From NCBI RefSeq assembly GCF_964204645.1, contig NC_134026.1, positions 11,746,450 through 11,810,449 on the forward strand: a stretch of DNA of 64,000 nucleotides. Reading direction: 5' to 3'. A program made the position numbers and the translations under genes. This DNA is from Tubulanus polymorphus. Lineage: Eukaryota; Nemertea; Palaeonemertea; Tubulaniformes; Tubulanidae. Positions 43,001 to 60,427 of this stretch are shown here, piece after piece. Within the stretch, counting starts at the first letter, position 1. Every line of letters starts with the position of its first letter. The notes under the pieces were generated by a model, which worked only from the letters and a program-made list of their open reading frames with translations, did no database searches and was not told where the DNA came from.

Positions 43001-46000
43001 GCTCGTTTGGGCGTCAATGGCGAATGGTGAAGCCCTAAAACATCGAGTGGAAACGGGTCTTCCGGACAGGACATTATGCCCTGTGCGGGCGTTGTGTTTC
43101 TATTTAGATCGCTCTGCTCCACGGAGGGGTTCGCGGGAGCGGTTATTTATTCCGCTGCTGGATCACCTGAAGGGTGATATTTCTCGGGACACAGGGGCCC
43201 GATGGGTCTCTTCACTGATCAAGGACATTTTATTGAAGGAGAATCTTTCCTCGGAGGGAGTGGTTTCTCATCAAGTGAGGTCTATGGCTACTTCCTGCGC
43301 AGCCTTTTCAGTCGGAAGTCTGTCGGGCCGCCTTTTGGAATTCTCCATCGACATTCACGTCATTTTATTTACGGGATGTTTCAGGCCAGTTAGGCACATT
43401 AGCTTCACTCGGTCCTGTTGTTATGGCTCAAGGTGTCCGTTCTTTCCGATCGGACCCTTTAGCGTTGAATATTTATGTTGCATTATCAGGATCACAGGGG
43501 GTGTATCCATGTACATAGTTTGGGTTCATATTCGCAAGTATTAATTTCACAAAATTCAGGGGGGCCCTGAGCTGGACGGACTCACTGTGGCCAACCGTTC
43601 TTCCCTGCCCTACAGTGCTCCATTCCGTGCTTGGGTAAGTGCTCTCTTTTTTCCCGTTTGAGCGGTGGTTTTTCTATCTACCTTTCCCACCATCCTTGTG
43701 CTAGGCTAGTCTAGCAAAAACCATAGGAAAGGGTACAGTACTTGACGGAAATATTACAATTTTTGGAACTAAAATTAGTATTTCCGAGTAGTACTTACCC
43801 TTTCCTATGGTGGGAATCCCGCCGACCTGCCCTGCATAGCTGCTTTTTTTGGGTCTGCTATGACGTAAAAAGATGGCGGATTTCGCCGGTGGCTAAATGT
43901 AATACCGCAGGGCCGGGTCGTATAGAAAAACCATTGGCGATCAATCCAAATTTAGAAAATATTGGCAAAAACCATAGGAAAGGGTAAGTACTACTCGGAA
44001 ATACAAATTTTAGTTCCAAAAATTGTAATTTTCTTGTCAGCGGTTTGAACAAATAGTCAAATTTATCCTGTTGTGCAAATCTGCTTCGATTAGATGACAC
44101 GTGACTAGCAAATTATGATTAGAAGAATCAAATTTGATTTGACGTGATATATATACCTTTAGTTTTACATGAATACAGACATGGTAGGGTGCAATATGGT
44201 AGGGTGCAATCAATATACAGTTGAATTAGTACAGCTGTAGCATTTCGTGTAAATAATTTACAGCCTAAGTTTGTCCAATATAAAGTAAGAATTTAGTTAG
44301 CCTTGACCACTAAGTCAATATATGGACAAAATATGGACAGCCTGTAATGGAATCAAACAATATGATAACCATTAGAAATGCATAATACCTTAGGGCCCAC
44401 AGATTTCATACATATAACCATAATTCACCCCCTATCCTATTTGTCGAACTGTGGCAATCTTTATGGGGGACCTCTTTTTCATTACAGGTACTTTTTTGGT
44501 TCTGTCTTATGCCTCCAATGACATGTTGGTTGCCTCAGATTATCCTGTTCCTGGAATAAAGTGTTTAGAATTTTACCTACTTAAATTCATGTTATGACAA
44601 CCCATCATATCCTCCCCTGGCATGAATTTTAACTTTATGCCATCGTAAGACTCTGTCATGACAAGAAACCCTACCTTATCACTGTGAATGCGCGGGTTAG
44701 CTGCATGAAAACATTCAGTGCCTGTTTACTGATGCAAAGTCACAGTGAGGTAAATAGAGGATAAGAAAACCCAGGCTGAAATGAAACATTATTTCTGATT
44801 GGCTTATGTGACATTTTGTGCATTCAAGCTTATCAGACTGGGTTTGATGCCGTGGCCGAGTCTCAGCCTTTGCGCCTCAAGAGGAATATTTCTAGCATTC
44901 ATTATTTTTAGATATTGCAAATTACATGAGCAGAACACAATTGTAGTTATATTTCTGCACATATGAGTTATCCAGGTTTTTACTCTGGCATATTTATTTT
45001 TGTTTATAGGTGATACGTACATTAGATCCAAAATTTAATCCATCTGCGACACCAGAGGTGCAAGCATTGAGAAATCAGCTGCAGGAAAAAGATCGTCTTA
45101 TTGAACATTTAGAGGTAATCGTACAGAATTTTTGAAATTATGTGAAAGTACGGTACAGCCTAGAAGAAACTTAACTCCGTTTTCATTTGCGTTTAGTTTT
45201 ATGTCGTTTAAACCGCGTTCTGTAATTCGTTTTCGTTTAGTTCCGAACGCGTTCGAAACTCGTTAGGGATGAATATCCGTTTCTAAATAACGCATTTTGT
45301 TGCATGCTTATGGGTGCAACAAAACTTCGAACGCTCCTATTGAGCGTTTATAATGTTACTGCATGTATTTTACCATGTAGTCATCCAAATACAAGAAGTT
45401 GCTCTCAAAAAGAAGGGAGCTGCATTCGATGAGTGATACATTTGAACCGCGGTAGTAACTAGATTGATTCGCGTTTCTATTTCGTTTTATCAAAAAGGAA
45501 AAATGAAAACGCAACGATCTCTGACGAACGCCGGATGCGTTATGAGTTATGTTACTTCTAGGCTGTACCGTAGGTGGGCTGAATGATTGAATATTGGTTA
45601 ATGATAAAACCCTTTCTGAAATATCTCCCTTGTGATGGTGCACAACCGGTGTCTTGCATCAACATACAACTGTTCTGTTACTATGTTAAGTTGCACATGT
45701 GTATTCTGGAGTCAGGTTGTCCAGCATCCGATGTCCATCCGTGGACATATCCTGCTAGGGCAAACATCTTGATTTGTCTTGGTATACAGCCTACAACTCT
45801 TAAAGGGTTTACATGTAACTTGGTGTGATGATTGGGGCAGGTAAGATGTTCACTATTTTTGAAAATGGATTTCATCAGCCATCAAATATGGCCGCCAGGG
45901 TAGCCATCTTGAATTTCTTGTTAGCTGTTGTATTAGACTAGAGAGACGACCAGAAAACAGAACTCAGTACGAGGATCAGTTTGATCTTACAAATGCCTCA

Positions 46001-49000
46001 TGATTTATTCATACACAGATATTTATATGCTGCAAATATGATGGTCACAGACCGTCAATAACAAATGGTATTGAATTCAGAAATATAGAAATGTACAGTT
46101 CATTGGACAGTTCAGTCACACTCATAATAACGACAGTTGACATAGTTGAGTCACTCCATAGGACCGACATTAGGACAATACAGCAGGGAATATCTGGTGG
46201 ATATCTATGAAACTTGATGTGAGAGTTAAGACAGGTTTATCTGCGTTCGACTTCAAGTCTTACAATGTGGGGGGATTGCGTGGGGTATTTGAGGCCGCAA
46301 GGTGTAACTATAGTTTGGATTCAGATAATTCTCTCTGACTTGAAAAGATGTCAGACTGTGATGTTTCTAATCATTCAATTTGAACTTCTGTATTAAAAAA
46401 GAGTTCTACTATGTGAAAGAAATTTATTTGAAAAAACAGAAAATCTTCTCTAGACTAAAGTGTTTATCCCACTTACATGGATCTGATAGTTTACTGTATA
46501 TCTGAAATTGATTTATTTGTTTGCTCTTAGAGGGACCAAGACCGCATAAGGAGCTCACGGGAACAAGAAGAAAAGTTGCTGGTATCTGCATTTTATAATC
46601 TGGTGAGTAAAGGAGACAATGTTGTCCAGTACTATGAATCCATTTTCTTCTGAACATCTTTATACAAGGATATACATTGATAGAAATTCATCTATCCAGA
46701 TTTCACAATAGATTTTACTTCAACTTATCGACTGAGATAATGTGACTTAACTGTATCAATGACAATGTTTTATTCAAGACTATGCTACGAGGTACCACCA
46801 GGCAAAACCCCAAATACACATTTAGGTGGCAGCACTGTACACATGTAGTATATGTAACAGAGATAAGAATTCCACGGCAAACCGTAGTTTTTGTACCAAA
46901 AAACATTTTTTTCAAAATAGTTTTAAAATAATGTAATAGTTTAAGGGGGATGATGGTGTCACTGACCCTGTCTGGTGCGACTGGTAATTGGGCTTGTCTG
47001 TTGCAATTTGTAGTCGGGCGACCCTAAAAGCGTTCAGTGCCTGTTTTACAAATCATCACGCATGTTGCTTTTTATTTCACATTTACCGACCTATTTCAAC
47101 ACTGATTTAAAGGGGTCATGAAGAGGTTTTGAAAACAAATTTTAAATCAATTTTTTTGGGTAAAACATTTACCGTATGCATCTTTAGTAGTCTCACGAAA
47201 AAAATTTTTAATTTCATTATCCAAACTCGAGAGAAGCCCGCAGCAACCGGACGCTCGCGTTTGCGCGGTGATGTTGATGGCTTTCCCTAGTGACCCACAT
47301 CGCTGTAGTGTGTACAACATACTGGCTGGCTACGTATGTATGCAGCACACATTACTACTACACGGGACGGTGCAGGCTGGGATACTACTGGGAATCAATA
47401 TAACAAATTGGAGAACAAAAAGTTGTGAGGGGAGAAACCGTTATTCAAATTAACACTATTTCCCGAGTTTTCAATAATCAGAGCTGATTCCATAATGTGT
47501 CGTTTAATTTTTCCGGACAGTGGAAAATTATGGAGGCATTTTCAAAATCAAAATTGTTGCTGGTTTCGTATACGTGATTGGCAACACCACTTACAGGCTT
47601 AAAATTCTTTACATCATTTCTATGTTCACGCATGCGCTTGTGTAAATCGCGCCCGGTTTCACCAATATATATTTTATTACAAACTTTACAGGGAATTTTA
47701 TATACACCAATCTTCAGGAGTTCAATTTTGGGGGAGTTACGAGTAAGATTATGACTAAGTTTGTTGTTATGAGTAAAAATGAGTGAGTAAAAATGAGTTG
47801 TTTATTTAAGAGATGGAGGGGTTTTAGATTTTTCCAGAAAAGGAACAAAAGGTACAACAACAGGCTGTTTACGCGCGCGGGTCACTTGAGAATGACAGAA
47901 ATGTGAACGATGGACTCTCAAGAGAGCTTTATCCAAAATGTCGTCGGGGGGGGGGGGGGGGGGTTGAATATGCTATTTTATTAATAGAAGTCTTGATCTG
48001 GGTTCATTCATCATCCAAGAAAAGAGGGGCACAAATCCTAAGCGCACGAAGGAATAAGCCTTGCGCAACACTAAGTTTAATGTTGAAGGAGAAATAATGC
48101 AGGTATGATCCAGAGCGGGTAGGTTTCCTATAAACTGATAATTTTAAACAAGACAAACAATTGTGAATACAAACATCAAGGAAAGGGATTATCCCATCAA
48201 CTTTCAATTCAAATGTGAAGTTCAAGGAGGGATAAAAAGAGTTAATAAATGTGAGAAATAGATCAATCTCAAAGTTAAAAGGTAGAAGCACAAGAATATC
48301 ATCAACGTATCGTAACCAAAGTTTAGGGGGAGTATCCGTGTCAAGAGGTAGTAATTCAGTTTCAACATGTTCAAGGAATAGATTCACTAGAATGGGACTA
48401 AGCGGGTTCCCCATAGCCATGCCAAAAACCTGTTCGAAATATGAATTGTTGAAACTAAAGAAGGAGTTCTGAGTGCAAAGTTCAATTGATTCGATGATAC
48501 AATCAGTGGGAATGTCAAAATTAAAATCCAACGAAGGAAGTTTACGTTTAAGAAAATCCAGGGTAGGCCTAAGAGAAACATTGGTGAAAAGAGAACTAGC
48601 ATCAAACGAAATGAATCTATCGTTACCAGGAATAATGTGTTTTAACCGTTCTACTTAATCTTGGTTGTGTCGTAAATGCGAGGGGGAGAAAGAACAGGTT
48701 TGGAATGGGCTCTGATTATCGAAAACTCGGGAATTATGTTTATTTGAATAACGGTTTCTCCCCCCACAACTTTTTGATATCCAAATTTCTCGCGTTTCTT
48801 GTACCCCCGTTATATTGACTCCCTCCATTAGGTGCCTTGAATATCGCTTGCTTGTTTCCACTCACTCCCTGATTATCGCCTTTCATGTTCCTTCTCTTTG
48901 TTTTCATCTGATTACCCCTTAGCTTGTCCTCACGTTTTAATCACTTTAGTTTGTGTCTTTTGTTTTTAAATTACTTTAATCTATATTGCCCTTAGTTTGC

Positions 49001-52000: not shown

Positions 52001-55000
52001 ATAAGCAAGTAGGCTATTTAATTCAGTATATGAACTAGCAAGTATGATGATACCAATGGCAGGGTTCGTAGCGGGTTTTCCAAGTGGGTATTTATTTGTA
52101 TATTTATGGAAAAAATCGTAGCCAGTATTTGCTTTGATTTCCATGAAAAAAACAAACAAAAAGTCTGCATATGTTTGTATTTTTTCACATTTTGTGGATG
52201 GATGGATTCTGACTTGTGAAATTGCAGTCAATCTATTAATACTGCGTTGCTAATACATTTGTAGGCCTACAGTATATGGCTGTGTGTTGGAAATTACCTG
52301 AGCGAGTCTATAGATAGGCAATGATAGTATACACAGCACTCTCACTAACTGTGCAACTGAGCATATACTCATACTAATCATTCATTAAAGTGTTACCCAT
52401 TCTCCAAATCCTAGCGAGCTGAATTGTGAAAAGATTAATATGAGTTTTTTTCCCGCAAAAATCTGAACACAAAAATATTGGTTTTAAAAAGCCAATCAGA
52501 AGGCAAAGACTCCCTTAGCCGCAGAAATCAGCAGGTGTTCACGTGAACACATGTTTTACTTCCAGGTTTTATTTTAAGATTTAAAGTTGTCTTTCAAGAT
52601 TGATTTCTGTGAAATCGTAAGTTGATTTGGTTTTTGGGTGGAATATTTTTATTTGTAAAATAGCATTATCTCAAATCGCATGGATGACCTTGATATGGTT
52701 ATTGGCCATGTGCTCAAACTGCAAATTCAATCAAATTTTATATTGCAAAAATATTCAATTTCACTTTATTGAACAAATAAAACATCAAATCCAATTCAAT
52801 TTTGTTTTATTGATCAAATTTCTGAAAAATTGGTTTTCTTCCCAATTCAAATAAATAAGACCAAGGGAAAAGATTGATCTGAGGTATTTTTTCCTGCCAG
52901 CTCCTTGTCTGTGCTACTTATGAAAACACAATTGCACTGTGTAAATTATAGGCATTGACCAGGTATAGAATACATGCAATATGAGCTCTTGCGCGAACTG
53001 TTACTCGCGCGAGCATTCTACGAATTCAGCGCTTTGCGCGAGGTGAAACTATCGACGGGAGCCGTTCGAGTACGCGAGCTTTAAACTCGCGCGAGCATTC
53101 TACGAATTCAGCGCTTTGCGGGAGGTGAAACTATCAACGGGAGCCGTTCGAGTACGCGAGCTTTAAACCACCACTCCGCCCCGTTCGAGTGCGCGAGCTT
53201 TAAACCACCACTCCGCCCCGTTCTAGTACGCAAGATTTTTTGAGAACATTTTTATACGCAAATACGATATTCAGATATTTTATGAACATGTTTGATGAAC
53301 ATTTTACGCCTAAGTTGCACGGATTTAGGAAAACCCACAACCACGTATATTCATGATGAATCATCATAGGCCTACGACGGTACTACAAGTAATGCTGAGA
53401 TCGTCTCAATTGATTGACGGATTGCCATAAAAACAGCAATTTTTATTTCCCGATCTTACTTTTCTGCAAGAAGTCATAAAAATTATCTTTGTGCATATAT
53501 ATATATATTTGAAATTTTGAATAATGCGTTATATAGAAAAATGGTTTTCATTTAAAAGATAAAAAATAAAAAACCACCGTCCTCGACGTTTCCAACTAAG
53601 CCGCGAGTTTTCAGTATTTTTAACTTACACAGCTCGTAGAATCGTATATTTGTTAATCGTGGAATCAAGATGCAAATTGTGGTGAATTTTAGTGGGAACT
53701 AGACGCCATGATGAATCATTTAACCCTCTAACTTGATTAGTTATTTTTGTATTTGGCTCGGCGAACTAATTTAACAAATTAATCCTAAACAAAAAGACAT
53801 ATTTTGCAAATGTAGTGGGAACTACTAATTTTTAGTAGCCGCCGCCGCAAATTGTGACTGAATGATTATGCCCCTAAATGCGTAATTAGATTAAACCATA
53901 CATTGTCATCTCTCCCTGATTTTCAATATAAATTCTTAAGCCTTGAATTATAAACCTTAATATACATTCAACCTTCCAAACGAAAAGACTACATTTTATA
54001 GCTCCTTGAAATACATTCCGATACGTACACGTGTGATAATGAATGCTGCGGCGCGTAAGGCATGGCAACAGGTCGAAAAAGCAGTTAAAAGATACGCGGA
54101 GGTGACCAAAAACGAAGTTGCAGCTTTGTGTTTTTTTGAAAACCGATCCCAAAAGATTGAGAGTGTTTTGACTGGGACTAGCGATTTAATGCAGGAATTA
54201 ACCGAAAAAAGTGGCGAAATCTTGGAGAATATGAATAAAAGAAAAGGTGATGACCGTGATGGAGTGATATTGTCATGTGAAAAACTTTGCCTGCCGGATG
54301 TGAAGAAAATTTATGGAAGATCATTATGCGATTTGAACAGCAATGAAGTTCGAGGACTTTGCGCTAATTTAGTATTCACGAGCAGAAAACTCTTAGGAAG
54401 GATAGGTAACAATCCGAAATGGGGTGACGAATCGCAACGTTTACCCTGGTGGCCTGAAACACTGGAATGGAAAAATCCCCGGTGTGATTTCAGACCAAAA
54501 AATCAGCGTGATATAACATTTGCAGAAGCTATACGCAAAGTTTGTGGAGCTGCATATCAGTTCCATGAAGTATCTCAACTAGCCGGTAAGTTTTTTATGT
54601 AATAATATTTAATGACATTATTTTTTTCATGAGGCCTTTCATATAGTTCGAACAATTAGAATACATATAATTAGTATCTTCAAGAAGTGATATAAAAGCG
54701 GTGGATAAATTTAATATCATAAACTTATTTACCTGTGAACCTAATTTAGCAAACTAAGGGAGCAGTGAGATATGACCATCGTAAATTTAACTAAATGCAT
54801 TTAATTTTAGACTGCCTTTTTCATGATTAAAAAAGTTGGTCTCAATATACATGTAACAATGTTGAAATATATGTCCACTTCTCAACAGGCGATGACATTC
54901 TGGCAGAACTGACACGGCTTTCAGAAAATTCGTCATTCGTTTCTGTATTACCAGCACCAGTTGAATTCGCCGATGTACCAGAGACTGAATTCGCAGATGT

Positions 55001-58000
55001 ACTAGAGACAAGTAAGTAACACAGGAGACTTGTTTGACATTAGTTGGGCTATTTATCCTAATGTTTTGGATGTTCAAATAATAACTAAAAATTCTAACAT
55101 TTTTCCAAACTGCAGCAAGATATTCTTTACAGTATATACAAATACATTTTTCTGAGTTAACCTTCAAAAATCTAAAGTTCTGATCTATATACATGTCGAT
55201 ATTCTAAAAATTATAAAAATGTATGAATTCTATTACGAAAATAATGTAAATTATTTCTTTGTCTACGTATTTTAGCCGAGAGCTCGTCATGTAACCCAAG
55301 TGCTGTCAATCATCTGCCTCCATCATTTCAACTCGGCGAGTCCATGATTATGGAAACAATTGAAAATGGCAACATCAGTGACATCTTGAAGCTGAACGTA
55401 ACAGAAATATCAGGTAAATAAATACATTAATGCCTAATAACATTTTTCTTCAAAAATCTAAAGTTCAGATCTATATACATGTCGATATTTTAAAAATTAT
55501 AAAAATGTATGAAATAATAAAATTCAACTTATGAATGAAATTATCAATTAAATAATTGTATGAGTTCATGAAATAATAATTTTCTAAATAGCCAGGATGA
55601 ACGAATATGATGGACCTGAAATCCTAAGCAGCACAACAGATGATGTTTATGAAGACAGTAGCTCGAAAGGTGATAAAGCCGTCAGCAAAACATCAATAAC
55701 AACAGAAACTAAACGCCCTAACAGGAAGAGGAAACCAACAGAGAAAATGTCTGAGTACTTGAAGAAGCGCAAAGTTCTGTAAATACATGTATCAATAAAA
55801 CAATTAAAATATTCATATTTCCTTGATGTTATAGAATCAATATTTGAGGAAAGGTACTTTATCACTACGATGCATTAATCTTCTGTTTCTTATCCCTATT
55901 CTTTATTGTTAAAAACAAAGCAATGTTACGAACAAAGTTTTCAGGTTTCATGTATGCAAGCTGAGCTTTTAACCTTACAATGCCAGCATTAGCTTGTTCA
56001 TTGATTTGAGTATTAATGCTGTGCAGGTCAACATTGGACTTGTATGTATCTAACTTGTAACCTTCACAGCATCCAACATGATTCTTCCAATGCATACGGT
56101 CAACACAGAACATAGTATCTTGAAAAAACTGTGGTTCCCTAAAAATCATATAAAAGAAAGTAAATACTTTAAGAAATAGAATTATTTCTAAATAAGGTCA
56201 CGTGCAATGAGATATTTTACTATTGCGATTACAATTATTTGTTTTAAAAAAACATACCGGTTCAAGCTATACTGATGTAGGCGACAGGCATTGTCATATA
56301 CAATAACTTTCGGAGCTTTTGCAAATCTTGTTTTGAAGATGCTAAAAGGGTGCCTGGGAGATTCGTGACTCTGCATAACCTAATTAATAAAAGTGGATAG
56401 TTTATTTCATACATGAGTGTAGTTAAAAATTACACTGATCAATTAAGTTAGGCATTAATAACTTTAAAACACACTGTATACATAATTTAAGATGCAATAA
56501 TAAAAATAAATTAAATAATAATTTGTTTTTAATCTTAAATCCTGTATGTAGTAGGTTTGAAACTTATTATCTGTTCTCCACATTGAGTGGTAATTCTACT
56601 ATTAAGTTAGACACATACCTGGAAACCATAGTTAACACCATGCGAACAGAAAACTGTGAAGATGCCCGGAGTTAACACCCAGTGAGTTTTTGCATACTTG
56701 TTACAACTATCACCTCTTCTATATTTAACACGGTCATTCTTTGCATCCATTTCGTAGTTTCCGTCTCTAAAATAATGAAGGGTCAAATAAATCAGGTATA
56801 TTTACAATACAATTTTACTTGTTGCATAATTACTGTTTCACTAATTATTACCTGTGTAGTTTTGGGAGACAGGGAAAAAACTTAATGTATTGAACAGATC
56901 TTCATTTGTTGATTCCTGCAGCACATGCTTGGGATAATCAGATACCTGCAAGAAAAAGTAAAGTTCATGCTATCATGGAGTTAACTAGTTTTTCAATTTA
57001 TAATTTTTAATTTATTATCACATAATGTACCTGGAAGCAGACTTTGGCACGTTGAATAAGATCCCTCAGGAAACCAATACAATACTCATCTAATCTACCA
57101 GTAGACTGTCTGATATTCTGAATGTAGTTGTGTATAATAGGTGCACATCTTATGAGCTCGCCTATTTCAGCATGGTTTTCGCTTTTAAAAAAATCAGTTT
57201 CAGCAGAAAGACATCTTTCGACTAGAGCAGCATTTGTATGAAGTTCGTTGACTGCACAACTGCACAAGCTGGTCCATTGCATGATGAACACTCTATCATC
57301 ATGTTTACTCCCAGAAGTCACAGGACTATCTGCAGATATTATAGGCTGAACATCTTGCAATGAATGGAACAAATCCTTACGAAAACCGAGATCTACACCA
57401 TCGCTTATTACCACGCTTGGGTAATCTTTACAAAGTGGACAATGAAACTCTGATGTCCAGTTGAAATCGAGAAGTCGCATGAATGCACTCCAACTCTTTT
57501 GCAATGTGTGCCGCGGTATTACTGATGATCTTAGTGAAATATTTGCGGATCTCTCCAAGCTTCTGGAATAAATACACAATCAGAATGCAAATGTCTGGTT
57601 ACTTTCTCCATTAGTTGTTGTATATTATTGAAAGTTACTAAATAAACAAACCCCAACTACCTTTGATATGATGACAGGGGATTTCTAGCCTCAGGCATGC
57701 CATGCAGATATTTGAACAACAGTCTGTAATCTACCAGTTGACAGTTATTAACATTCAACAGTAATTCCCTCTGTCCATCAAAGAAGAACTGACAATTACA
57801 ATCACCGATTGATGGTCGATTATTCACTGCAAAATAAATATCATTACTTGAATATTAAAATAAATTTCATGGGATAAAGTTTAAAAATGTGTCAATACTT
57901 TAAATATATGTACATACAGGCTCGTACATACCATTTATTCTTTTCAAAACACCACCAAGCAATGTGAACTCCTGGCTGCCTGTTTCATTAAATACAGTGG

Positions 58001-60427
58001 CCTTTTTATCGAAACGCCCATTCATCAGAACAGGATCGCGACAATCCCACGAAAAATTATGAGTACATCTTGACTCTGCATCAAAAATAGGCACAAAATT
58101 CTCTGGGTATGGCATGCCATACATTCGGTTCTGTAAGACCATCTGCAGTTCAGTGGGTAGCGGATAAGAAATAAGATGACGTGACACTACCGACATGCTT
58201 GTGTGAATATGTGAAACATTTGATAACGGAGGCTGAGGTTGTATGCCCTTTTCATCACACCAGTCTTTATACATGTTAACATCAACACAATTTGAATTGT
58301 ATTTGCATGTTTCACAAATAAAATGCGCCATGCGACCGCTCCACTTAACAATGTTCACTGACTGTTGACAGGTAGCAGAAATTAATATAGGCGCTTGCGA
58401 CAGAATATGGATATCTGTTCCATCAGCTGGCCACACACACATTTCTATATCCCTGTATAACATAGTTATGGCAAAGCAATGCTTGCAATAATTTGCTTCA
58501 CACCGGACCTTAAACTGAGAGATTGCTTCCGTTAAATTTTTGTCCAATGACGATAATTCTTTCATGCGCCCGTATCCAACGGGACAGTTACAATTTAATA
58601 TCGAGCACTCTCCATCCGCCGAAAAGTATCGCAATTGCTTCTTTACAATGAAATGTTCGTTGCCATCTGCCAGTACAAAGACTCCAGGAAATAAATCCCA
58701 GTATTCTTTGTTCTTTCTTAAAGTCATCAAATATATCTTATTTTCATCCAACGGACATTCTATGTGTACGGTTGTGACACTTGGATTACTGAAATAAAAA
58801 AATATAAATATATATATATATATATAAATTACTAAATATTAAAAATAAATAAATAAAACATTTTTAAGTTTAAAATCAATCATCCTGGTTTCCACATGTT
58901 TTACTCAGGATCAAACATAAAAAATGAAAAAAGAAATACATGCGTGAAAACAATGTCATCACAGAGGTCATTATTTCGGATAATCCCTTCGAGCTGAGCG
59001 AGCGAGCGCTCGAACTACGACGACAACGCCCCCAATCGGCCTCTTTCTGTTTATCATTTGATTTCTATAAGTCACAGAGGAAAGCTAAAACAATCCTATT
59101 CTGGATACAGTTAAATTTCTGGTAAGTTGATTCAATATAGCTACAAACCTGGTTTTATTTTGTTGCGAGCGCGATTTCAATGACATTGACAATTATTGGC
59201 TTTCTACTCGACCGTCACCGGTCGTTGTCGTTGTTGTTGCATCATCGCCACCTTGCTGACGATTTTCAAATAATCCTCTTCGACGACGTTTCTTGCACGG
59301 CTGCTTTTTCTCCTCTAATTTTTGTTTTTTTTTAACAATCCACGTGGCTTAATCGAGGCATAATTATTCATATAAATATCTAAAGTATGCACACGGAGAC
59401 GTGACGTTCACGCCGCTTTCTTAGCTTGTGATTGTTAAGAGTGCCATAAACTGGCACGGCAGGCTTGTGTTGCCCTGTTAGCACGCGGACTAGGCCAAAT
59501 GATAAACTATCGAAACGAAACAACGGTATTGAAAATAATTAACATTTTATGACTGAACATTTACCATTTGACATTTTTGTAAACAGATAATTCGGAAAGT
59601 TACCGGTCCTATTAACATCTATATCCAGCTCTTATAACAGGTCAGTAAAAAAAATCATCGTTGGTTTCGTTTTCAGATTTTACGCTCCGGGAAAACTTTA
59701 GATTTTTCGTATTTTATTGTAGACCCAGAAATGTCATATTTGATTCGGAGACACGCTCAAGTTTTTATCATGGATTAATTTGATCCTTTCAAGTTGCAAA
59801 CCACGCACGAACGCTCACTCACTCGCGTACTCGCTAACCACACTCCTCGCGATCGAGTTCCGAGTGGCCTTCTCACTTCGCGCGTGAGCTTCGAGTAGGC
59901 CTTCTCACTTCGCGCGCTCGAAAAGCTCGCGCAAAGCCGAATGCTCGCGCGAGTAACTCTTCGAGCAAAACATCAAAACGATACCGATTTTATAGCTCCA
60001 TTGAGCTGGGAGTGTATTTTGACAAATACCCAGTATAACCCACAGAGCATGATGTGCCATTTTATGAAAAGCTGACAGGCTGGCCATAGTGCCCTTTGGA
60101 GCTCTTGTTGTATTCTTCAGTCCAAATCAATCAGTATGCGGATGATCAATTGCTGTGAACGAGCACCTTGTAAATATTATACCTGTTGATCTGTCTAAAC
60201 CATTACTATATAACAGGATTAAGCCATCTCACACCGAAGATGTTCACACTCATGAGTGTTTTAACTTTTTCCTATTATTCTATTTGCAGGGCATGCAGTT
60301 ACATAGGAAAGCTGGTGAGGAACGCTTAGCTTATATCGGTGCTGGTCAATCGTTTCTTGCGCGACAAAGACAGGCTCAAAATAGACGCCTAATTTCATTA
60401 CCACATTCCAATGTGTCTCCTCGATAA
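6892..60427 (+). CDS. HOOK: Hook-family dynein/cargo adaptor, 16 exons, 5' part outside window
   Basis: Hook proteins link dynein-dynactin to vesicles: an N-terminal Hook (CH-like) domain binds dynein light intermediate chain, a long coiled coil binds dynein/dynactin, and the C-terminus binds the FTS-FHIP complex. Exons seen: 6892-7040, 7132-7191, 14755-14838, 15043-15137, 16802-16881, 17943-18007, 18886-19012, 21676-21761, 25199-25363, 30625-30694, 35208-35289, 35377-35517, 35583-35880, 45010-45114, 46531-46602, 60290-60427. Every junction has AG and GT and all phases fit, giving 604 codons plus TAA. Vertebrate Hook3 is about 718 residues, so about 115 N-terminal residues are missing. Family signatures include [23 protein letters not shown]-like [23 protein letters not shown]-like [31 protein letters not shown] and [13 protein letters not shown]. 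Five introns exceed 4 kb and are filled with transposons. Which vertebrate paralogue is closest was not decided; a single invertebrate Hook is likely. Confidence 0.95.
7132..7191 (+). CDS. HOOK: Hook exon: linker after Hook domain
   Basis: Twenty codons, phase 0 on both sides, beginning [11 protein letters not shown] and ending ELGEQ. It matches the ELMSKE linker that follows the Hook domain in vertebrate proteins. The next exon is 7.6 kb downstream. Confidence 0.9.
7192..9029. other. 5' part of a 7.6-kb Hook intron
   Basis: No gene was recognised. It holds a tRNA-derived SINE-like segment at 8577-8656; the rest is AT-rich and unassigned. Confidence 0.5.
8577..8656 (-). repeat. tRNA-derived SINE head
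   Basis: On the reverse strand: TGGCTCAGGTGG, a good RNA polymerase III A box, and about 35 bases later GGTTgatTTGAATCCCA, a B-box-like sequence. The tRNA fold is imperfect, so a SINE or tRNA pseudogene is likelier than a working tRNA. Confidence 0.55.
9030..9425 (-). mobile_element. Penelope-like element 3' end (reverse orientation)
   Basis: The reverse complement closely matches 12777-13190 and contains the same tail (ccacctgatgatggctgtta, then agccaaaac, then aataaattatctcatataaa). It is the mirror partner of the + strand copy, so the two ends flank the BEL/Pao remnants between them. Confidence 0.75.
9274..9323. repeat. 35-nt perfect palindrome insertion with 8-bp duplication
   Basis: 9281-9315 is an inverted repeat with 16-bp arms (cttggagtaatcattt) and a 3-nt loop. 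It is flanked by cattaacc at 9274-9281 and 9316-9323. The matching Penelope-like copy near 12870 lacks it. Confidence 0.85.
9656..10354 (+). pseudogene. BEL/Pao-type Gag fragment
   Basis: A single frame with one internal stop at 9842-9844. It contains GSRRELRQ, then after the stop [19 protein letters not shown], and further on a charged coiled coil with [16 protein letters not shown]. This layout is typical of the N-terminal Gag region of BEL/Pao retrotransposons (RG.R..L...I..ie..., then a Glu/Lys helix). It is followed 1.1 kb later by BEL-type pol pieces. The assignment rests on pattern and context. Confidence 0.55.
10355..11117. other. unassigned stretch between BEL/Pao pieces
   Basis: No coding pattern or known repeat end was recognised on either strand. 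Confidence 0.4.
11118..11429 (+). repeat. degenerate short tandem repeat, Asp/Asn/His/Arg-coding
   Basis: Variants of a 35- to 40-base unit (gaccgaaa..ttgatgat..ccgaaatcaccatgg) repeat through 11220-11390. They encode a low-complexity [15 protein letters not shown] peptide. Probably an expanded part of the retrotransposon between gag and pol. Confidence 0.5.
11430..11583 (+). repeat. 77-bp tandem duplication in BEL/Pao pol
   Basis: Copies at 11430-11506 and 11507-11583 differ at about two positions (ttttttatg versus ttttcaatg). The unit encodes part of the RNase H to integrase spacer (PDQWSHVPG). Its length is not a multiple of three, so it shifts the frame. Confidence 0.9.
11482..11988 (+). 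pseudogene. BEL/Pao pol fragment (RNase H to integrase spacer)
   Basis: Contains [34 protein letters not shown] and [17 protein letters not shown]. These match the BEL/Pao region W..VP...NPAD..SRG...L....WL.GP.FL and the ELK.AE...I..VQ integrase zinc-region lead. RT itself is absent. Confidence 0.8.
12063..12262 (+). pseudogene. BEL/Pao integrase core fragment
   Basis: Contains [19 protein letters not shown] and [18 protein letters not shown], matching the D.DSF..ALRRF..RRG.P..I.SDNGTNF.GA..EL core of BEL/Pao integrase with its second catalytic Asp (SDNGT). It ends abruptly where Penelope-like sequence begins. Confidence 0.85.
12262..13190 (+). mobile_element. Penelope-like element 3' part with GIY-YIG endonuclease
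   Basis: Begins with the RT thumb/linker ([18 protein letters not shown]), then [22 protein letters not shown] and [20 protein letters not shown]: the GIY-YIG endonuclease of Penelope-like elements (VYKI..., YIGETGR). The frame breaks between GVYKIP (to 12560) and VMYIGE (from 12573). After a stop at 12763-12765 comes a 3' UTR ending in the ctgatga/agccaaaac stem. 5'-truncated and inactive. Confidence 0.85.
13091..13128 (+). ncRNA. hammerhead-ribozyme-like motif in Penelope-like tail
   Basis: Order: CCAC, CTGATGA, stem TGGCTG...CAGCCA, AAAC, then GTGG, which can pair with CCAC as stem I. This is the order of a hammerhead core (CUGANGA, stem II, GAAA). The G before AAA is replaced and no normal stem III or UH cleavage site is visible, so this copy is at best a relic. 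Hammerhead motifs are known in Penelope-like elements. Related copies are at 9076-9125 (reverse) and 50184-50225. Confidence 0.35.
13311..13611. mobile_element. short TIR element (hAT-like MITE)
   Basis: Ends CAGGCGCGGATCCAG and, reversed, CAGGGGTGGATCCAG, an imperfect 15-bp terminal inverted repeat. 301 bp, no ORF. A convincing target duplication was not found. The CAGGGG start resembles hAT MITEs, an assignment by resemblance only. Confidence 0.6.
13640..13665 (+). repeat. single end of the CGGTACAGCC MITE family
   Basis: Reads gttatttctaggctgtaccg, matching the right end of the MITE at 45151-45570. No partner end was seen nearby. Confidence 0.55.
13884..14560. mobile_element. foldback element with roughly 180-190-bp inverted arms
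   Basis: 13884-14074 and 14381-14560 are near-perfect reverse complements (cacaggcactcgccgatggg ... acaaacttcgtt). Inside the spacer a second inverted pair, gagacggcaacactaggtcac (from 14249) and its complement (ending 14380), nests against the right arm. No coding pattern. TG-type ends and a target duplication were not identified. Confidence 0.85.
14755..14838 (+). CDS. HOOK: Hook exon: start of coiled coil
   Basis: Phase 0-0 exon reading [11 protein letters not shown]...[14 protein letters not shown], matching the family pattern LK.TTEEL...RDE...RCHELDMQ at the start of the first coiled coil. Acceptor tttttag, donor gtacgt. Confidence 0.95.
15043..15137 (+). CDS. HOOK: Hook exon: coiled coil 1
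   Basis: Reads [19 protein letters not shown] then [13 protein letters not shown], matching the vertebrate VAALQEEKSSL...ERLNQSDSIEDP segment. It ends in phase 2 at donor gtaagt, and the first base of the next exon completes the codon. Confidence 0.95.
15300..16633. mobile_element. MITE (gtgtataagtc type) split by a Helentron-like insertion
   Basis: Left half tctggtgtataagtcaag ends just before the Helentron-like copy at 15325. The right half, from 16586, ends gtcgacttatacaccgac. The two outer ends are inverted versions of each other, related to the MITE at 18211-18771. Confidence 0.65.
15325..16585 (+). mobile_element. Helentron-like element, full-length copy
   Basis: Same 5' AGCCCACTTGGGAC, (gtcc)n tract, internal units ending accagggggcgttgaa, 3' hairpin ccacttcccaagtgg and CTAG end followed by TT as the copy at 3537-4789. 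Confidence 0.75.
16802..16881 (+). CDS. HOOK: Hook exon: coiled coil 1
   Basis: Reads [19 protein letters not shown] then VYRLEA, the counterpart of the vertebrate GRRHLQLQTQLEQLQEE...RLEA segment. It enters in phase 2 and leaves in phase 1 (donor gtgaga). Confidence 0.95.
16882..17942. other. Hook intron, nothing recognised
   Basis: About 1 kb without a coding pattern or repeat end that I could identify. Confidence 0.5.
17943..18007 (+). CDS. HOOK: Hook exon: coiled coil 1
   Basis: Reads [19 protein letters not shown] then QQK, matching the AKDDYRIRCEELEKEI.EL segment of the family. Acceptor atttcag, donor gtacaa. Confidence 0.95.
18211..18771. mobile_element. TA-flanked MITE (mariner/pogo-like)
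   Basis: Ends TACCGTAAAAACCGGCGTAT and its exact inverse, continuing into aagtc: a perfect inverted repeat of about 25 bp with TA at both extremities, as in Tc1/mariner insertions. The body holds extra copies of ggcgtataagtcgaggtc in both orientations. No transposase. Confidence 0.8.
18886..19012 (+). CDS. HOOK: Hook exon: coiled coil 2
   Basis: Reads [32 protein letters not shown] and ETYKKKM, matching the family's NDELTTLADEAQSLKDEID...HSSDKV...ESYKKKLED. Leaves in phase 1 at gtaaga. A TA-flanked MITE (18211-18771) ends about 110 bp upstream. Confidence 0.95.
19096..20180 (+). mobile_element. Helentron-like element, diverged copy
   Basis: Starts cagcccacttgggac, has the same internal units, and ends in a degenerate cgacggctg|gtt in place of CTAG. 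Older than the copies at 3537 and 26950. Confidence 0.65.
20375..21655 (+). repeat. diverged Helentron-like repeat interrupted by a TTAA element
   Basis: Flanks of the TTAA element (cccatgacatattctcggat ... tgagtttt and tgtcattggttcctgtatat ... gaaattgtcagattgttag) match the internal units and 3' portion of the Helentron-like family, so they were once continuous. Confidence 0.6.
20552..21528 (-). mobile_element. piggyBac-like TTAA element, decayed
   Basis: TTAA at 20552-20555 and 21525-21528. Ends CCCTTTCAATACCAC and, reversed, CCCTTACAATACCAC. On the reverse strand near 21245-21370 an acidic stretch ([14 protein letters not shown], then [14 protein letters not shown] before a stop) is typical of piggyBac transposase N-termini. 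Most of a transposase is missing, so this is an internally deleted derivative. Confidence 0.7.
21676..21761 (+). CDS. HOOK: Hook exon: coiled coil 2
   Basis: Reads [17 protein letters not shown] then [12 protein letters not shown], matching LGDLRRQVKLLEEKNT.YMQ.T..LEEE in vertebrate Hooks. Acceptor tttcag, donor gtatgc. Confidence 0.95.
21762..22859. other. Hook intron, mostly unassigned
   Basis: Contains the hairpin at 21864-21907 and a lone ccctttcagtactg end (about 22392) like the TTAA elements, but no matching partner. No gene. Confidence 0.4.
21864..21907. repeat. perfect hairpin, 19-bp arms
   Basis: atggcttatatatatttct and its exact reverse complement, separated by the 6-nt loop atatta. 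Confidence 0.85.
22860..23390 (+). repeat. 5'-truncated Helentron-like copy
   Basis: Contains gcccgaattccgagtcctat, the ggcggccatcttggtg block and three caccaggggg-type unit ends. Neither terminus is intact. Confidence 0.6.
23391..25198. other. Hook intron, nothing recognised
   Basis: AT-rich, with no coding pattern and no identified repeat end. Confidence 0.45.
25199..25363 (+). CDS. HOOK: Hook exon: coiled coil 2
   Basis: Fifty-five codons, phase 0-0. Contains [36 protein letters not shown] and [10 protein letters not shown]. The KADKLDFE block is one of the most conserved in the family. Confidence 0.95.
25364..26540. other. Hook intron with small tandem repeat
   Basis: A few copies of gttacat sit at 25470-25495. 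Otherwise unassigned, with no gene. Confidence 0.45.
26545..26720 (+). repeat. degraded 5' part of Helentron-like repeat
   Basis: Starts tagctcactcgagac, then tgtcttgatattcggttt and agattcaagatggctgacc, matching the first 200 bases of the family. Confidence 0.55.
26950..28220 (+). mobile_element. Helentron-like element, best-preserved copy
   Basis: Starts agcccacttgggactttagt after a run of T, followed by (gtcc)n and (gttc)n. It has four internal units with intact caccagggggcgttgaat ends and finishes gtccctggacccctag|tttt. The hairpin here carries one change (ccatttcccaagtgg). Confidence 0.75.
28383..30010 (+). repeat. long interspersed repeat B, copy 1
   Basis: Begins ggccagccataggctgagcc. 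Its parts recur at 34052-34240 and 52330-52960 plus 59999-60110. It includes agaccaagggaaaagattga and ends gaaagctgacatgctgggcc. The 29220-29580 part has no counterpart in copy 3. Superfamily unknown; the ggccagcc start and ggctggcc end may be short inverted repeats. Confidence 0.6.
30625..30694 (+). CDS. HOOK: Hook exon: RERDSLKET block
   Basis: Reads [19 protein letters not shown] then QLSG, matching [14 protein letters not shown]. Leaves in phase 1 at gtaagt. The following intron is 4.5 kb. Confidence 0.93.
31118..31156 (+). repeat. solo 3' end of Helentron-like repeat
   Basis: gtgggtgtaatggtgtccct then ggacccctag followed by TT. Confidence 0.6.
31950..32035 (-). repeat. possible tRNA-derived SINE fragment
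   Basis: The reverse strand carries GGTTCGGATCCCTGCC, close to a pol III B box. No clear A box was seen upstream. Confidence 0.3.
32978..33045 (+). repeat. tRNA-like SINE head
   Basis: gggtagcgcagtgtgcagcg resembles an A box with D-arm, and ggggttcgacctct about 30 bases later resembles a B box. The cloverleaf is poor, so a SINE relic is likelier than a tRNA gene. Confidence 0.4.
34052..34240 (+). repeat. interspersed repeat B, copy 2 (5' part only)
   Basis: ggccagccataggcttagcc ... gcgcaactgagcatatattc ... gctgaattttgaaagagggc, closely matching 28383-28560. Confidence 0.7.
35208..35289 (+). CDS. HOOK: Hook exon: variable linker
   Basis: Enters after acceptor cacatag in phase 1 and leaves in phase 2. 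It reads [19 protein letters not shown] then LMNIPPEVR. The last residues are the family's (T)PEIREKL start, so this is the less conserved linker between the second and third coiled coils. Phases on both sides fit, though the linker itself is not diagnostic. Confidence 0.85.
35377..35517 (+). CDS. HOOK: Hook exon: [11 protein letters not shown] block
   Basis: Reads [18 protein letters not shown] then [15 protein letters not shown] and SEIESENR. The [14 protein letters not shown] motif is diagnostic of Hook proteins. Confidence 0.96.
35583..35880 (+). CDS. HOOK: Hook exon: coiled coil 3
   Basis: The largest exon, 99 codons. It begins [17 protein letters not shown] and ends [18 protein letters not shown], matching the family's coiled coil 3 and its conserved [15 protein letters not shown] end. 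Donor gtaagt. The next exon is 9.1 kb away, across a DIRS element. Confidence 0.96.
36021..36753 (+). mobile_element. second Helentron-like candidate built on a 133-bp tandem repeat
   Basis: 5' aagctctgctgtg and 3' subterminal cacagcggagct are imperfect inverses. A hairpin agccaataggct then ccttg, followed by TTTT, closes the 3' end. The architecture resembles the first Helentron-like family but the sequence is unrelated. Confidence 0.5.
36120..36740 (+). repeat. 133-bp tandem repeat, about 4.5 units
   Basis: Units start ggggtggagtttctatttct at 36120, 36253 and 36386, with a diverged fourth from about 36531. Units 2 and 3 look identical over 133 bases, which points to recent amplification. 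Confidence 0.9.
36848..36970 (+). repeat. 5' fragment of Helentron-like repeat
   Basis: cagcccacttggggctggtc followed by cagagggctattgtgttcac, diverged from the family's first 120 bases. Confidence 0.6.
36971..37821. other. Hook intron before DIRS element
   Basis: AT-rich, with repeated tcaaatttgattt-type words. No gene. Confidence 0.4.
37841..37961 (+). repeat. DIRS left inverted terminal repeat
   Basis: Reverse complement of 43867-43986 with scattered mismatches, for example cgatcgc versus tggcgat contexts and ccctccggt versus ccgcagggc. Confidence 0.88.
38156..40333 (+). pseudogene. DIRS Gag-like region, at least two frameshifts
   Basis: Starts [16 protein letters not shown] at 38156. 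After a shift near 38225 it reads [20 protein letters not shown], then [13 protein letters not shown], a Cys-rich and helical N-terminus shared by animal DIRS Gag proteins, with a stop at 38428-38430. The region 38450-38680 is GGTTCC-rich low complexity. From about 38650 a third frame stays open to 40333: an Arg/Ser-rich stretch, then a domain with [15 protein letters not shown] and a basic C-terminus (GSSFRKNSK). The last 134 bases overlap the RT frame. Confidence 0.75.
40200..41474 (+). pseudogene. DIRS reverse transcriptase, YxDD box deleted
   Basis: Contains [92 protein letters not shown] and [12 protein letters not shown] (start of RNase H). These are motifs of DIRS-type RT. After the HPFGL block the frame shifts, and the segment that should hold the [YF]xDD active site is missing: the sequence passes from FTKLVKSVQ (another frame) straight to [19 protein letters not shown]. 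It therefore cannot encode an active polymerase. Confidence 0.88.
41470..41760 (+). pseudogene. DIRS RNase H end
   Basis: In another frame from the [20 protein letters not shown], then [20 protein letters not shown] and [15 protein letters not shown], matching the DIRS RNase H (N..E..A...AL..F, D.T.a..y.n..GG, G..N..AD.LSR). The usual Asp of the D.T/S triplet reads ATGNST here. The frame change follows the ENR...GR stretch near 41430-41470. The G7 run at 41878-41884 marks a further shift in the following spacer. Confidence 0.82.
42120..43500 (+). pseudogene. DIRS tyrosine recombinase, interrupted by MITE and frameshift
   Basis: The N-terminal core-binding part ([36 protein letters not shown]) runs up to the MITE at 42371. 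Beyond 42650 it continues [17 protein letters not shown], then [15 protein letters not shown] (first catalytic Arg) and [14 protein letters not shown] (H..R box). A frame change near 43305-43320 then separates this from [18 protein letters not shown], which holds the Tyr nucleophile at about 43367-43369. Removing the MITE while keeping one TTAA leaves the frame open across the insertion site. Confidence 0.88.
42371..42650. mobile_element. piggyBac-like TTAA MITE inside the DIRS recombinase
   Basis: TTAA at 42371-42374 and 42647-42650. The terminal inverted repeat CCCTTTCAGTGC is exact at both ends. Contains two copies of acaccgcactgcggtgta. Apart from one 4-bp TTAA the flanking recombinase reads straight through. 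Confidence 0.9.
43714..43810 (+). repeat. DIRS internal complementary region
   Basis: The first half (gcaaaaaccataggaaaggg then tacagtac) is the inverse of 37822-37862. The second half (attacaatttttggaactaa ... gtacttaccctttcc) is the inverse of 43971-44040. Confidence 0.88.
43867..43986 (+). repeat. DIRS right inverted terminal repeat
   Basis: Reverse complement of 37841-37961. Confidence 0.88.
44041..45009. other. Hook intron, nothing recognised
   Basis: No gene or identified repeat end between the DIRS element and Hook exon 14. Confidence 0.45.
45010..45114 (+). CDS. HOOK: Hook exon: VIRTLDPK block
   Basis: Reads [19 protein letters not shown] then [16 protein letters not shown], continuing directly from the YLEKAKS of the previous exon as in vertebrate Hooks. 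Phase 0-0. Confidence 0.96.
45151..45570. mobile_element. 420-bp TIR MITE, TA-flanked
   Basis: Ends CGGTACAGCCTAGAAG and its exact inverse, flanked by TA on both sides. The body is rich in gttt/cgttt words. A related single end is at 13640-13665. Begins 36 bp after Hook exon 14. Confidence 0.8.
45571..46530. other. Hook intron, nothing recognised
   Basis: No gene. A few words (ggccgccagggtagccatctt) recall the Helentron-like family, but not enough to call a copy. Confidence 0.4.
46531..46602 (+). CDS. HOOK: Hook exon: C-terminal REQEEK block
   Basis: Twenty-four codons [17 protein letters not shown] then VSAFYNL, matching the family's SQREMEEK.IVSAWYNMG. Donor gtgagt. The following intron (13.7 kb) holds Penelope-like and KDZ elements. 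Confidence 0.95.
46603..47403. other. Hook intron before Penelope-like cluster
   Basis: No gene or repeat end was recognised. Confidence 0.4.
47404..47490. repeat. inverted repeat arm of Penelope-like pair
   Basis: aaaaagttgtgaggggagaa then accgttattcaaat ... cccgagttttcaataatcag is the inverse of 48706-48780. The two Penelope-like copies thus meet head to head, as in the inverted pseudo-LTR arrangement known for this group. Confidence 0.85.
48004..48531 (-). CDS. Penelope-like reverse transcriptase core, partial
   Basis: An open stretch of 175 codons with motifs B and C of Penelope-like RT (AMGNPLSPI and YVDDIL). The preceding 130 bases keep the same frame and supply motif A ([10 protein letters not shown]), so the open region really extends to about 48660. 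It ends at FLDDE and a stop. No telomerase-type or LINE-type features. Confidence 0.9.
   Translation of the reverse strand: MDFNFDIPTDCIIESIELCTQNSFFSFNNSYFEQVFGMAMGNPLSPILVNLFLEHVETELLPLDTDTPPKLWLRYVDDILVLLPFNFEIDLFLTFINSFYPSLNFTFELKVDGIIPFLDVCIHNCLSCLKLSVYRKPTRSGSYLHYFSFNIKLSVAQGLFLRALRICAPLFLDDE
49082..50125. mobile_element. 1044-bp TIR element of unknown superfamily
   Basis: Ends CAGACCTGCCAA and its exact inverse TTGGCAGGTCTG. Flanked by ctcact at 49076-49081 and 50126-50131, a likely 6-bp target duplication. Contains cgtaatcgttacgg and several acgttttacg words. No ORF of note. Confidence 0.8.
50184..50225 (+). ncRNA. hammerhead-ribozyme-like motif, second Penelope tail
   Basis: CTGATGA (50188-50194), stem TGGCT...AGCC, then GAAGC where a hammerhead needs GAAAC, then gttgcgc. 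It keeps the G of GAAA that is lost in the 13091 copy. Activity is doubtful. Confidence 0.35.
50297..51036 (+). mobile_element. Helentron-like copy, 5'-truncated
   Basis: Starts within the family at gagacaggtatttttgatca, has four internal units (one with a tatata insertion at 50674-50689), and ends cccaagtgggc...ggacccctag|ttt. Confidence 0.7.
51037..52320. other. Hook intron, nothing recognised
   Basis: Open frames on the reverse strand at 51129-52231 show no family resemblance and no coding pattern that I trust. Confidence 0.4.
52985..53235 (+). repeat. KDZ left-end GCGC-rich tandem repeats
   Basis: Two 82-bp units (53003-53084, 53085-53166) start actcgcgcgagcattctacg and end cgagctttaa. 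Two shorter units of about 37 bp (accaccactccgccccgttc ... gcgagcttta) follow. TGCGCG-type words occur at 52990, 53035 and 53190. Confidence 0.88.
54039..55782 (+). CDS. transposon-borne NRF1/EWG-like DNA-binding protein, four exons
   Basis: Exons 54039-54585, 54889-55011, 55276-55413 and 55592-55782 join in phase to 332 codons plus TAA. The ATG at 54039 is the first in frame. Residues about 10-180 resemble the NRF1/EWG DNA-binding and dimerisation region: near residue 130, [19 protein letters not shown], then [19 protein letters not shown] and [20 protein letters not shown], parallel to NRF1 G.GKPGWG.ES..P.WWPED.PW.N.R.D.R...Q...SW..ALR.....CY..HG. The acidic/Ser-rich middle ([16 protein letters not shown]) may be an activation or interaction region. 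The end is basic ([20 protein letters not shown]), NLS-like. NRF1 itself is a host transcription factor that binds TGCGCA half sites. A role in binding the element's GCGC-rich ends is an inference. AATAAA follows at about 55793. Confidence 0.8.
55865..58788 (-). CDS. KDZ transposase, at least seven exons, one likely frameshift
   Basis: Exons in reading order: 58788-57932, 57826-57661, 57562-57031, 56945-56852, 56766-56619, 56379-56258, 56138-55865, all AG/GT bounded, about 730 codons visible. The first exon enters in phase 2, so a 5' exon lies further up. A SWIM-like zinc finger (LNCNCPVG ... [11 protein letters not shown]) comes first. Then [20 protein letters not shown] (first catalytic Asp), [28 protein letters not shown] (second Asp), [18 protein letters not shown] and [11 protein letters not shown] (probable catalytic Glu), the KDZ order of DDE residues. 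Exon 4 fits its neighbours only if one base is added, most simply in the A6 run at 56875-56880. That is either a disabling mutation or a homopolymer error. Confidence 0.85.
59225..59335 (-). other. possible 5' exon of KDZ transposase (basic stretch)
   Basis: The reverse strand reads [20 protein letters not shown] then [19 protein letters not shown], an NLS-like basic segment in an open frame upstream of the first assigned exon. The splice donor and phase are not resolved, so this is only a candidate. Confidence 0.3.
59800..59967 (-). repeat. KDZ right-end GCGC-rich repeats
   Basis: Contains cttctcacttcgcgcg twice (from 59870 and 59901), ctcgcgcaaagc and ctcgcgcgagtaac. The last two are the inverse of the left-end gttactcgcgcgag and ctttgcgcgag. 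Confidence 0.85.
60290..60427 (+). CDS. HOOK: Hook last exon and stop
   Basis: Begins [20 protein letters not shown] then [13 protein letters not shown] and ends SNVSPR before TAA at 60425-60427. It matches [29 protein letters not shown], the C-terminal cargo (FTS/FHIP) binding end. No clear AATAAA was noticed close downstream. Confidence 0.96.
   Translation, partial: GMQLHRKAGEERLAYIGAGQSFLARQRQAQNRRLISLPHSNVSPR

Follow-up and report, generated by a model that had tools for sequence, protein, structure and literature searches.

The window, as we call the whole 64,000-nucleotide stretch analyzed here (C2:11746450-11810449), contains at positions 52960..59998 a 7039-bp mobile element that we named the family A copy of the KDZ-NRF1 element, KDZ standing for the Kyakuja, Dileera and Zisupton DNA transposons. 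Its edges were set by comparison with the loci L028 and L045-L047 and with the other families of the element described below, and they differ by one base from the original prediction (52961..59998). The latter also described a convergent gene pair within one 7-kb element, and both genes are indeed present, convergent and located between the element ends. The termini are 5'-CAGG..GCTC-3' and form imperfect short terminal repeats (CAGGTATA/GAGCTATA); the ends that we could locate start with CAGGTATA or close to it and finish with TATAGCTC or close to it. A 7-bp target duplication flanks the element, with cattgac on the left (52953..52959) and cattgag on the right (59999..60005), which agree at 6 of 7 positions. 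This duplication is perfect (7/7) in nine other copies (L028, L029, L030, L036, L038, L040, L044, L047 and L041, the last being flanked on both sides by gacactt), which ruled out an 8-bp duplication. The left subterminal region also carries an 82-bp tandem duplication (53003..53166, + strand) that repeats most of the inverted pair presented below.

The exon structure of both genes was inferred from splice signals and reading frames. The first gene, on the + strand, has four exons and a 332-aa product. Exon 1 (54039..54585) encodes the DNA-binding domain and is additionally supported by Pfam and by sequence matches in the PDB; it is followed by exon 2 (54889..55011), exon 3 (55276..55413) and exon 4 (55592..55782), which encodes a basic tail and the stop. 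The translation combines an acidic middle with this basic tail. The Pfam family Nrf1_DNA-bind (PF10491) matched the 332-aa protein with an E-value of 1.4e-10 (41.7 bits, cutoff 23.5). By sequence, the PDB returned chains of human NRF1, 8k3d (8k3d_A, 4.3e-7) and 8k4l (1.8e-6), the third and last match being at 0.9. The four-exon protein with an NRF1-type DNA-binding domain that had been predicted from the sequence is thus confirmed. The Pfam alignment pairs residues 27-181 with profile positions 56-208 and includes the dimerisation half of NRF1; in a profile comparison (hhalign) with the NRF1 of the host, only about residues 96-181 were aligned and the dimerisation half lay outside. A single-sequence fold of exon 1 had a low pLDDT (39.5), and a protein search of a large public protein database returned none of 1289 candidates at E <= 0.001.

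The second gene, on the - strand, encodes the transposase in at least seven coding exons. Seven were located between 58788 and 55865, giving 729 codons free of stops up to the stop at 55865; a first exon was sought upstream of them and not found. In the order of transcription, the first located exon (57932..58788) is followed by an exon that takes part in a weak match to CxC4, below the Pfam cutoff (57661..57826), by an exon with a DGVDLG motif (57031..57562), the Asp of which we take to be the probable first catalytic one, and by the exon 56852..56945. The KDZ core, recognized by Pfam, extends over the last three exons (56619..56764; 56258..56379, with YDNAC; 55865..56138, with NEQ and the stop). 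When isolated, this catalytic core matched KDZ (PF18758) at 6.7e-7 with 29.7 bits, above the cutoff of 26.6. A scan of the whole 729-aa chain returned only CxC4, at 0.0051 and below cutoff, so the KDZ match belongs to the core and not to the whole chain; CxC4 in family B was also below cutoff (3.2e-4). By comparing the cores of five families, we found that three of the five match PF18758 at E <= 1 and that the Asp of YDNAC and the Glu of NEQ are invariant in all five. A DG motif lies upstream, and these residues are candidates for the catalytic D, D and E. With seven exons located and a core above the PF18758 cutoff, the multi-exon KDZ transposase announced for this locus is real. Among viral contigs searched for the transposase core, 48 pattern matches were obtained and none was confirmed.

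Copies and families across the genome

We searched the one genome from which the window comes (267.8 Mb) with the NRF1-like exon and found 21 places. Eighteen of them were taken as 10-kb regions, leaving out the window itself, C1:16092679 and C7:9487733, and two loci with ends only (L046 and L047) brought the set to 20 regions. Grouped by sequence, the NRF1-like gene falls into seven diverged families: A (window, L028, L035, L045), B (L029, L030, L032), C (L031, L037, L041), D (L033), E (L034, L036, L043), F (L038, L040, L044) and G (L039, L042, L026). With one row for each transposon family and one for host NRF1, PF10491 was matched in 8/8 rows at E <= 1.

Matches to a downstream, convergent transposase were present in 11 of the 20 regions (L028-L033, L037, L038, L040, L041 and L044). 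Searching with the catalytic core gave at least 54 exon matches at 18 or more loci, and at 14 of the 18 core loci found a convergent NRF1-like gene lies no more than 15 kb away. The four others are C5:14667697, C7:14082373, C4:15898954 and C5:12766984, the last one being a core remnant whose convergent NRF1-like gene is 24 kb off and which was counted as unpaired. Seen from the other side, a core is missing within 15 kb of 8 among 22 NRF1-like loci; the pairing count excludes host NRF1 as well as the second pieces of C1:13887 and C8:6497. In eight elements (window, L028, L029, L030, L038, L040, L041 and L044), we located the two ends and matched both genes. It had been put forward as a check whether the genes move together, as a pair flanked by the same ends; in this genome, this holds for 14 of the 18 core loci and for eight complete elements.

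Copies that have a catalytic core therefore carry the pair as a rule, and several kinds of deletion copies exist besides. L036 (631-3356 in the reverse-complement orientation of the locus) measures 2.7 kb; its target duplication is perfect, no transposase was matched in it, and its NRF1-like exon contains a stop. L047 measures 0.95 kb, also has a perfect duplication and matched neither gene. Since the genome holds seven diverged NRF1-like families and 14 of the 18 core loci are paired, the association between the NRF1-like gene and KDZ is, judging by this divergence, old.

Other arrangements were seen along the way. At L046, two left-type ends (L046:2410 and L046:7833) lie inverted 5.4 kb apart, and neither gene was matched in the 10 kb. 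A search with the transposase N-terminal exon pointed to further loci without a detectable core. One of them, C4:15811815-15812681 (- strand), is an open 356-aa frame related to the N-part of the transposase, with no core near it at E <= 0.001 and no NRF1-like match at E <= 0.01 in a 4.2-kb stretch that starts 1.8 kb below it (15805800-15810000); it is a truncated copy, or possibly a host gene. On C5, a transposase N-part (12735662), the core remnant mentioned above (12766984) and an NRF1-like gene (12791401) follow each other in convergent order over 56 kb, and may represent a single element that nested insertions have pulled apart.

Inverted half-site pairs in the element ends

The ends are filled with family-specific GC-rich words. 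In the window, the left end has a single half-site TGCGC at nt 31 (52990..52994, + strand) and an inverted pair TACTC-GCGC-GAGCA at nt 43 (53002..53015). The right end has an inverted pair TGCTC-GCGC-GAGTA (59942..59955), the outer edge of which is at nt 44 from the end, and a single half-site TGCTC at nt 32 from the end (59963..59967, - strand).

We then compared 11 ends, chosen as the best-kept one per family and side (left: window, L029, L037, L034, L040 and L039; right: window, L029, L031, L036 and L040), family D having no located ends and family G a left end only. First, a TRCKC word starts at nt 43 or 44 in 11/11 ends, that is in six families, and is also found at nt 31-32 in 8/11, while its inverted partner GMGYA starts at nt 50-53 in 10/11; nt 11-30 differ between families. 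Second, the spacer within the pair is 4 bp in families A, B, C and E and 2 bp in F and G, with one letter of the second half-site deviating in G. Third, in families A, B, C, E and F, the best-kept left and right ends agree in the kind of site and in its distance from the terminus. In shuffles, the chance of TRCKC at nt 43-44 ranged from 0.004 to 0.022 for a single end, and the products of these values are not probabilities, as the ends are kin; ends and families alike are related by descent and not independent. Some ends depart from the scheme: the right end of L041 has no pair at this place, that of L043 has a shifted and altered pair, and half-sites are altered in the left end of L036, in both ends of L046 and in the right end of L047.

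TRCKC was derived from these same ends and is partly circular as a criterion, and the published NRF1 motif served as an outside test. Within the terminal 110 nt, the site that best fits the published dimer motif TGCGC-N(0,2,4)-GCGCA falls at nt 43-44 in 9/11 ends. At both ends of family A, the window's own, the pair at nt 43-44 has 3 mismatches to the NRF1 motif and better matches lie elsewhere. The right end of family F reads TGCGCATGAGCA, one mismatch from TGCGCATGCGCA. F and G, the families with the 2-bp spacer of NRF1, are also those that group together, weakly (84/72), and that are nearest to host NRF1.

In the binding study of human NRF1, the tightest of the spacer series are AT as a 2-bp spacer (Kd of 0.31 uM), the 0-bp spacer (0.57 uM) and a 4-bp spacer (0.91 uM), with CG as a 2-bp spacer at 1.09 uM (PMC10810270). 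The same study reports that replacing G by T within one half-site, which is what TGCTC shows, weakens binding about sevenfold (PMC10810270); therefore, the transposon protein would need to tolerate this substitution. Because related copies carry pairs resembling the NRF1 site at a fixed place near their ends, the NRF1-like protein probably recognizes the ends of the element.

Contact residues and relation to host NRF1

According to the crystal structure of NRF1, R206, N242 and R244 read bases, and W224 and D246 touch the backbone (PMC10810270). Counting one copy per family, R206 is R and N242 is N in 7/7 families, and R244 is retained in five families (A, B, C, E, F) and replaced by K in two (D, G). 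W224 and D246 are invariant among the eight aligned rows. Decayed copies deviate: in L038, R206 is replaced by L and D246 by E, in L043 a stop stands at R244, and L041 ends before N242. The proposal, made with the original prediction, that the accessory protein may recognize the ends thus gains support from the kept base-reading residues together with the NRF1-like inverted pair at nt 43-44.

The two genes differ in conservation, with 60-71% identity between families for the transposase core (five families) versus 28-59% for the NRF1-like domain (seven families). Between the window and L028, a single pair of copies with few changes, dN is 0.024 and dS 0.053 for the NRF1-like gene; for the transposase, dN = dS = 0.023, and the L028 copy has two stops. 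We make no claim that the window copy is active.

Using the human NRF1 domain as a query, we found 17 places, 16 of which were already known from the search with the NRF1-like exon; the remaining one is host NRF1 (L048, C3:7491987), which shares 60% identity with the human domain across 45 residues. The presence of such a gene is in keeping with an animal genome. The transposon domains are 22-34% identical to host NRF1, the nearest being F and G (30 and 34%) versus 22-29% for the others. In a nine-row tree, host NRF1 pairs with human NRF1 (100/99) and the seven transposon families stand apart from them; on the transposon side, only F and G are grouped, weakly (84/72). In addition, a frame change between neighboring open stretches indicates an apparent intron inside the domain of host NRF1, and the transposon gene covers the domain with one exon. 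As host and human NRF1 group at 100/99 and the gene at C3:7491987 is a separate one, a recent capture of this host's NRF1 is ruled out. The suggestion that host and transposon may have exchanged NRF1-type domains, in whichever direction, is supported in part only, the relation being old and the NRF1 at C3:7491987 a separate gene.

A putative end-binding partner of the transposase

We consider it fairly probable, on the strength of the sites and contact residues described above, that the element is a two-gene transposon of the KDZ superfamily in which the NRF1-like protein serves as a sequence-specific, end-binding partner of the transposase. In such a system, the NRF1-like protein, and not the transposase, would bind the inverted pair, dimerise and recruit the transposase. 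It would read TRCKC half-sites, into which TGCGC, the half-site of NRF1, fits, through the three contacts of NRF1. A dimer would occupy the inverted pair 43-44 nt inside each end, as well as single half-sites nearby, and would mark or bridge the ends, bringing them into register for the transposase, whose KDZ core would do the cutting and joining.

The nearest working model would be Harbinger, by likeness of working and not by membership. Harbinger elements encode, besides a well-conserved transposase, a more divergent Myb-like protein that binds the ends; through its interaction with the transposase, the two can enter the nucleus together and the transposase can act (PMC9179366). The element described here likewise has two genes, with a conserved transposase and a divergent partner (60-71% versus 28-59%), but it is no member, as its transposase belongs to another superfamily (KDZ core) and its DNA-binding domain is unrelated (PF10491, not Myb-like).

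Alternatively, it could be the cysteine-rich part of the transposase that reads the inverted pair. The NRF1-like protein would then be a transcriptional regulator of the element, an activator or repressor working on promoters close to the ends, and would stay outside cutting. The ends, which hold the sites, presumably also contain the promoters of both genes, an acidic middle and a basic tail are what a transcription factor may have, and both genes share descent, so that changes in the sites could follow either of them. However, the site resembles that of NRF1, whose contact residues are kept, and the agreement of left and right ends in the kind and distance of the site (families A, B, C, E, F) is easier to reconcile with end recognition than with regulation at two different promoters. 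We regard this alternative as unlikely, but as one to be taken seriously.

We find it improbable that a single capture from a host brought in the NRF1-like gene as a passenger that plays no part in transposition. It is true that some core loci have no NRF1-like gene, and that deletion copies with perfect duplications exist (L036, without a transposase match, and L047, without either gene), from which it follows that neither gene is needed in cis. Nevertheless, a passenger would hardly be expected to be kept across seven families with R206 and N242 unchanged in the representatives and R244 either R or K, although the domains are only 28-59% identical. Moreover, in the few changes between the window and L028, dN is below dS for the NRF1-like gene (0.024 < 0.053), versus dN = dS = 0.023 for the transposase. 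Finally, chance neighborhood or nested insertion, for which we found no supporting point, was rejected and deserves next to no credence, as the convergent order recurs at 14 of the 18 core loci and is also seen within elements flanked by target duplications.

Returning to the two-gene transposon with an end-binding partner, its likeness to KDZ elements consists of the PF18758 core above cutoff, a possible CxC4 cysteine cluster of the kind associated with KDZ (weak match, below cutoff) and a long multi-exon transposase. According to a study of fungal elements, Kyakuja makes 7-bp duplications, as the present element does, but has 5'-CA..TG-3' termini described there as lacking terminal inverted repeats, in contrast to 5'-CAGG..GCTC-3' and a short imperfect repeat here (PMC12730594). 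In the same study, Zisupton and the Dileera element described there make 8-bp duplications, compared to 7 bp here, and the partner in fungal KDZ elements is a TET/JBP dioxygenase, whereas here it is an NRF1-like protein (PMC12730594). With NRF1, EWG and P3A2, the protein shares the DNA-binding domain, the contact residues and a related inverted half-site pair (PMC10810270). It differs from them in being encoded by a transposon, with a single exon over the domain, 22-34% identity to host NRF1 and a separate group in the tree. Binders such as TnpA of En/Spm, which are unrelated to the proteins described here, also use short half-sites repeated near both ends, as is seen here.

Literature searches, with subscription journals and Repbase entries outside their scope, found no paper that pairs NRF1 with transposons; none of the titles and abstract openings among the matches listed describes a KDZ element with an NRF1-like partner, and no paper on HMGXB3 with KDZ was found. 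The element would give a transposon superfamily a second protein whose DNA-binding domain is structurally understood, together with concrete end sites for testing, and it places the NRF1 domain in mobile elements as a long-lived family. As a consequence, the origin of NRF1, from host to transposon or the reverse, becomes answerable by trees over animals and their relatives. The DNA-binding mode of NRF1/EWG was reportedly termed novel when it was solved. A tentative and rather unlikely idea is that the ancestor of NRF1/EWG was an end-binding protein encoded by a KDZ transposon, and that its site TGCGCATGCGCA goes back to the inverted pair of the transposon ends.

Elsewhere in the window, further mobile sequences appear to be present. 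An ORF on the + strand (11467-11988), without a Pfam match at 0.001, resembles, as we see it, part of a BEL/Pao-type polyprotein. The stretch 38373-43544 (+ strand) is GC-rich (0.46-0.55) and filled with long overlapping ORFs, one of which matches RVT_1 (4.3e-7) and another of which, of 297 aa, has no Pfam match at 0.001; we take it to have the look of a DIRS-type retroelement. Lastly, a reverse transcriptase ORF on the - strand (48004-48654; RVT_1, 1.9e-8) presumably belongs to a Penelope-like element.
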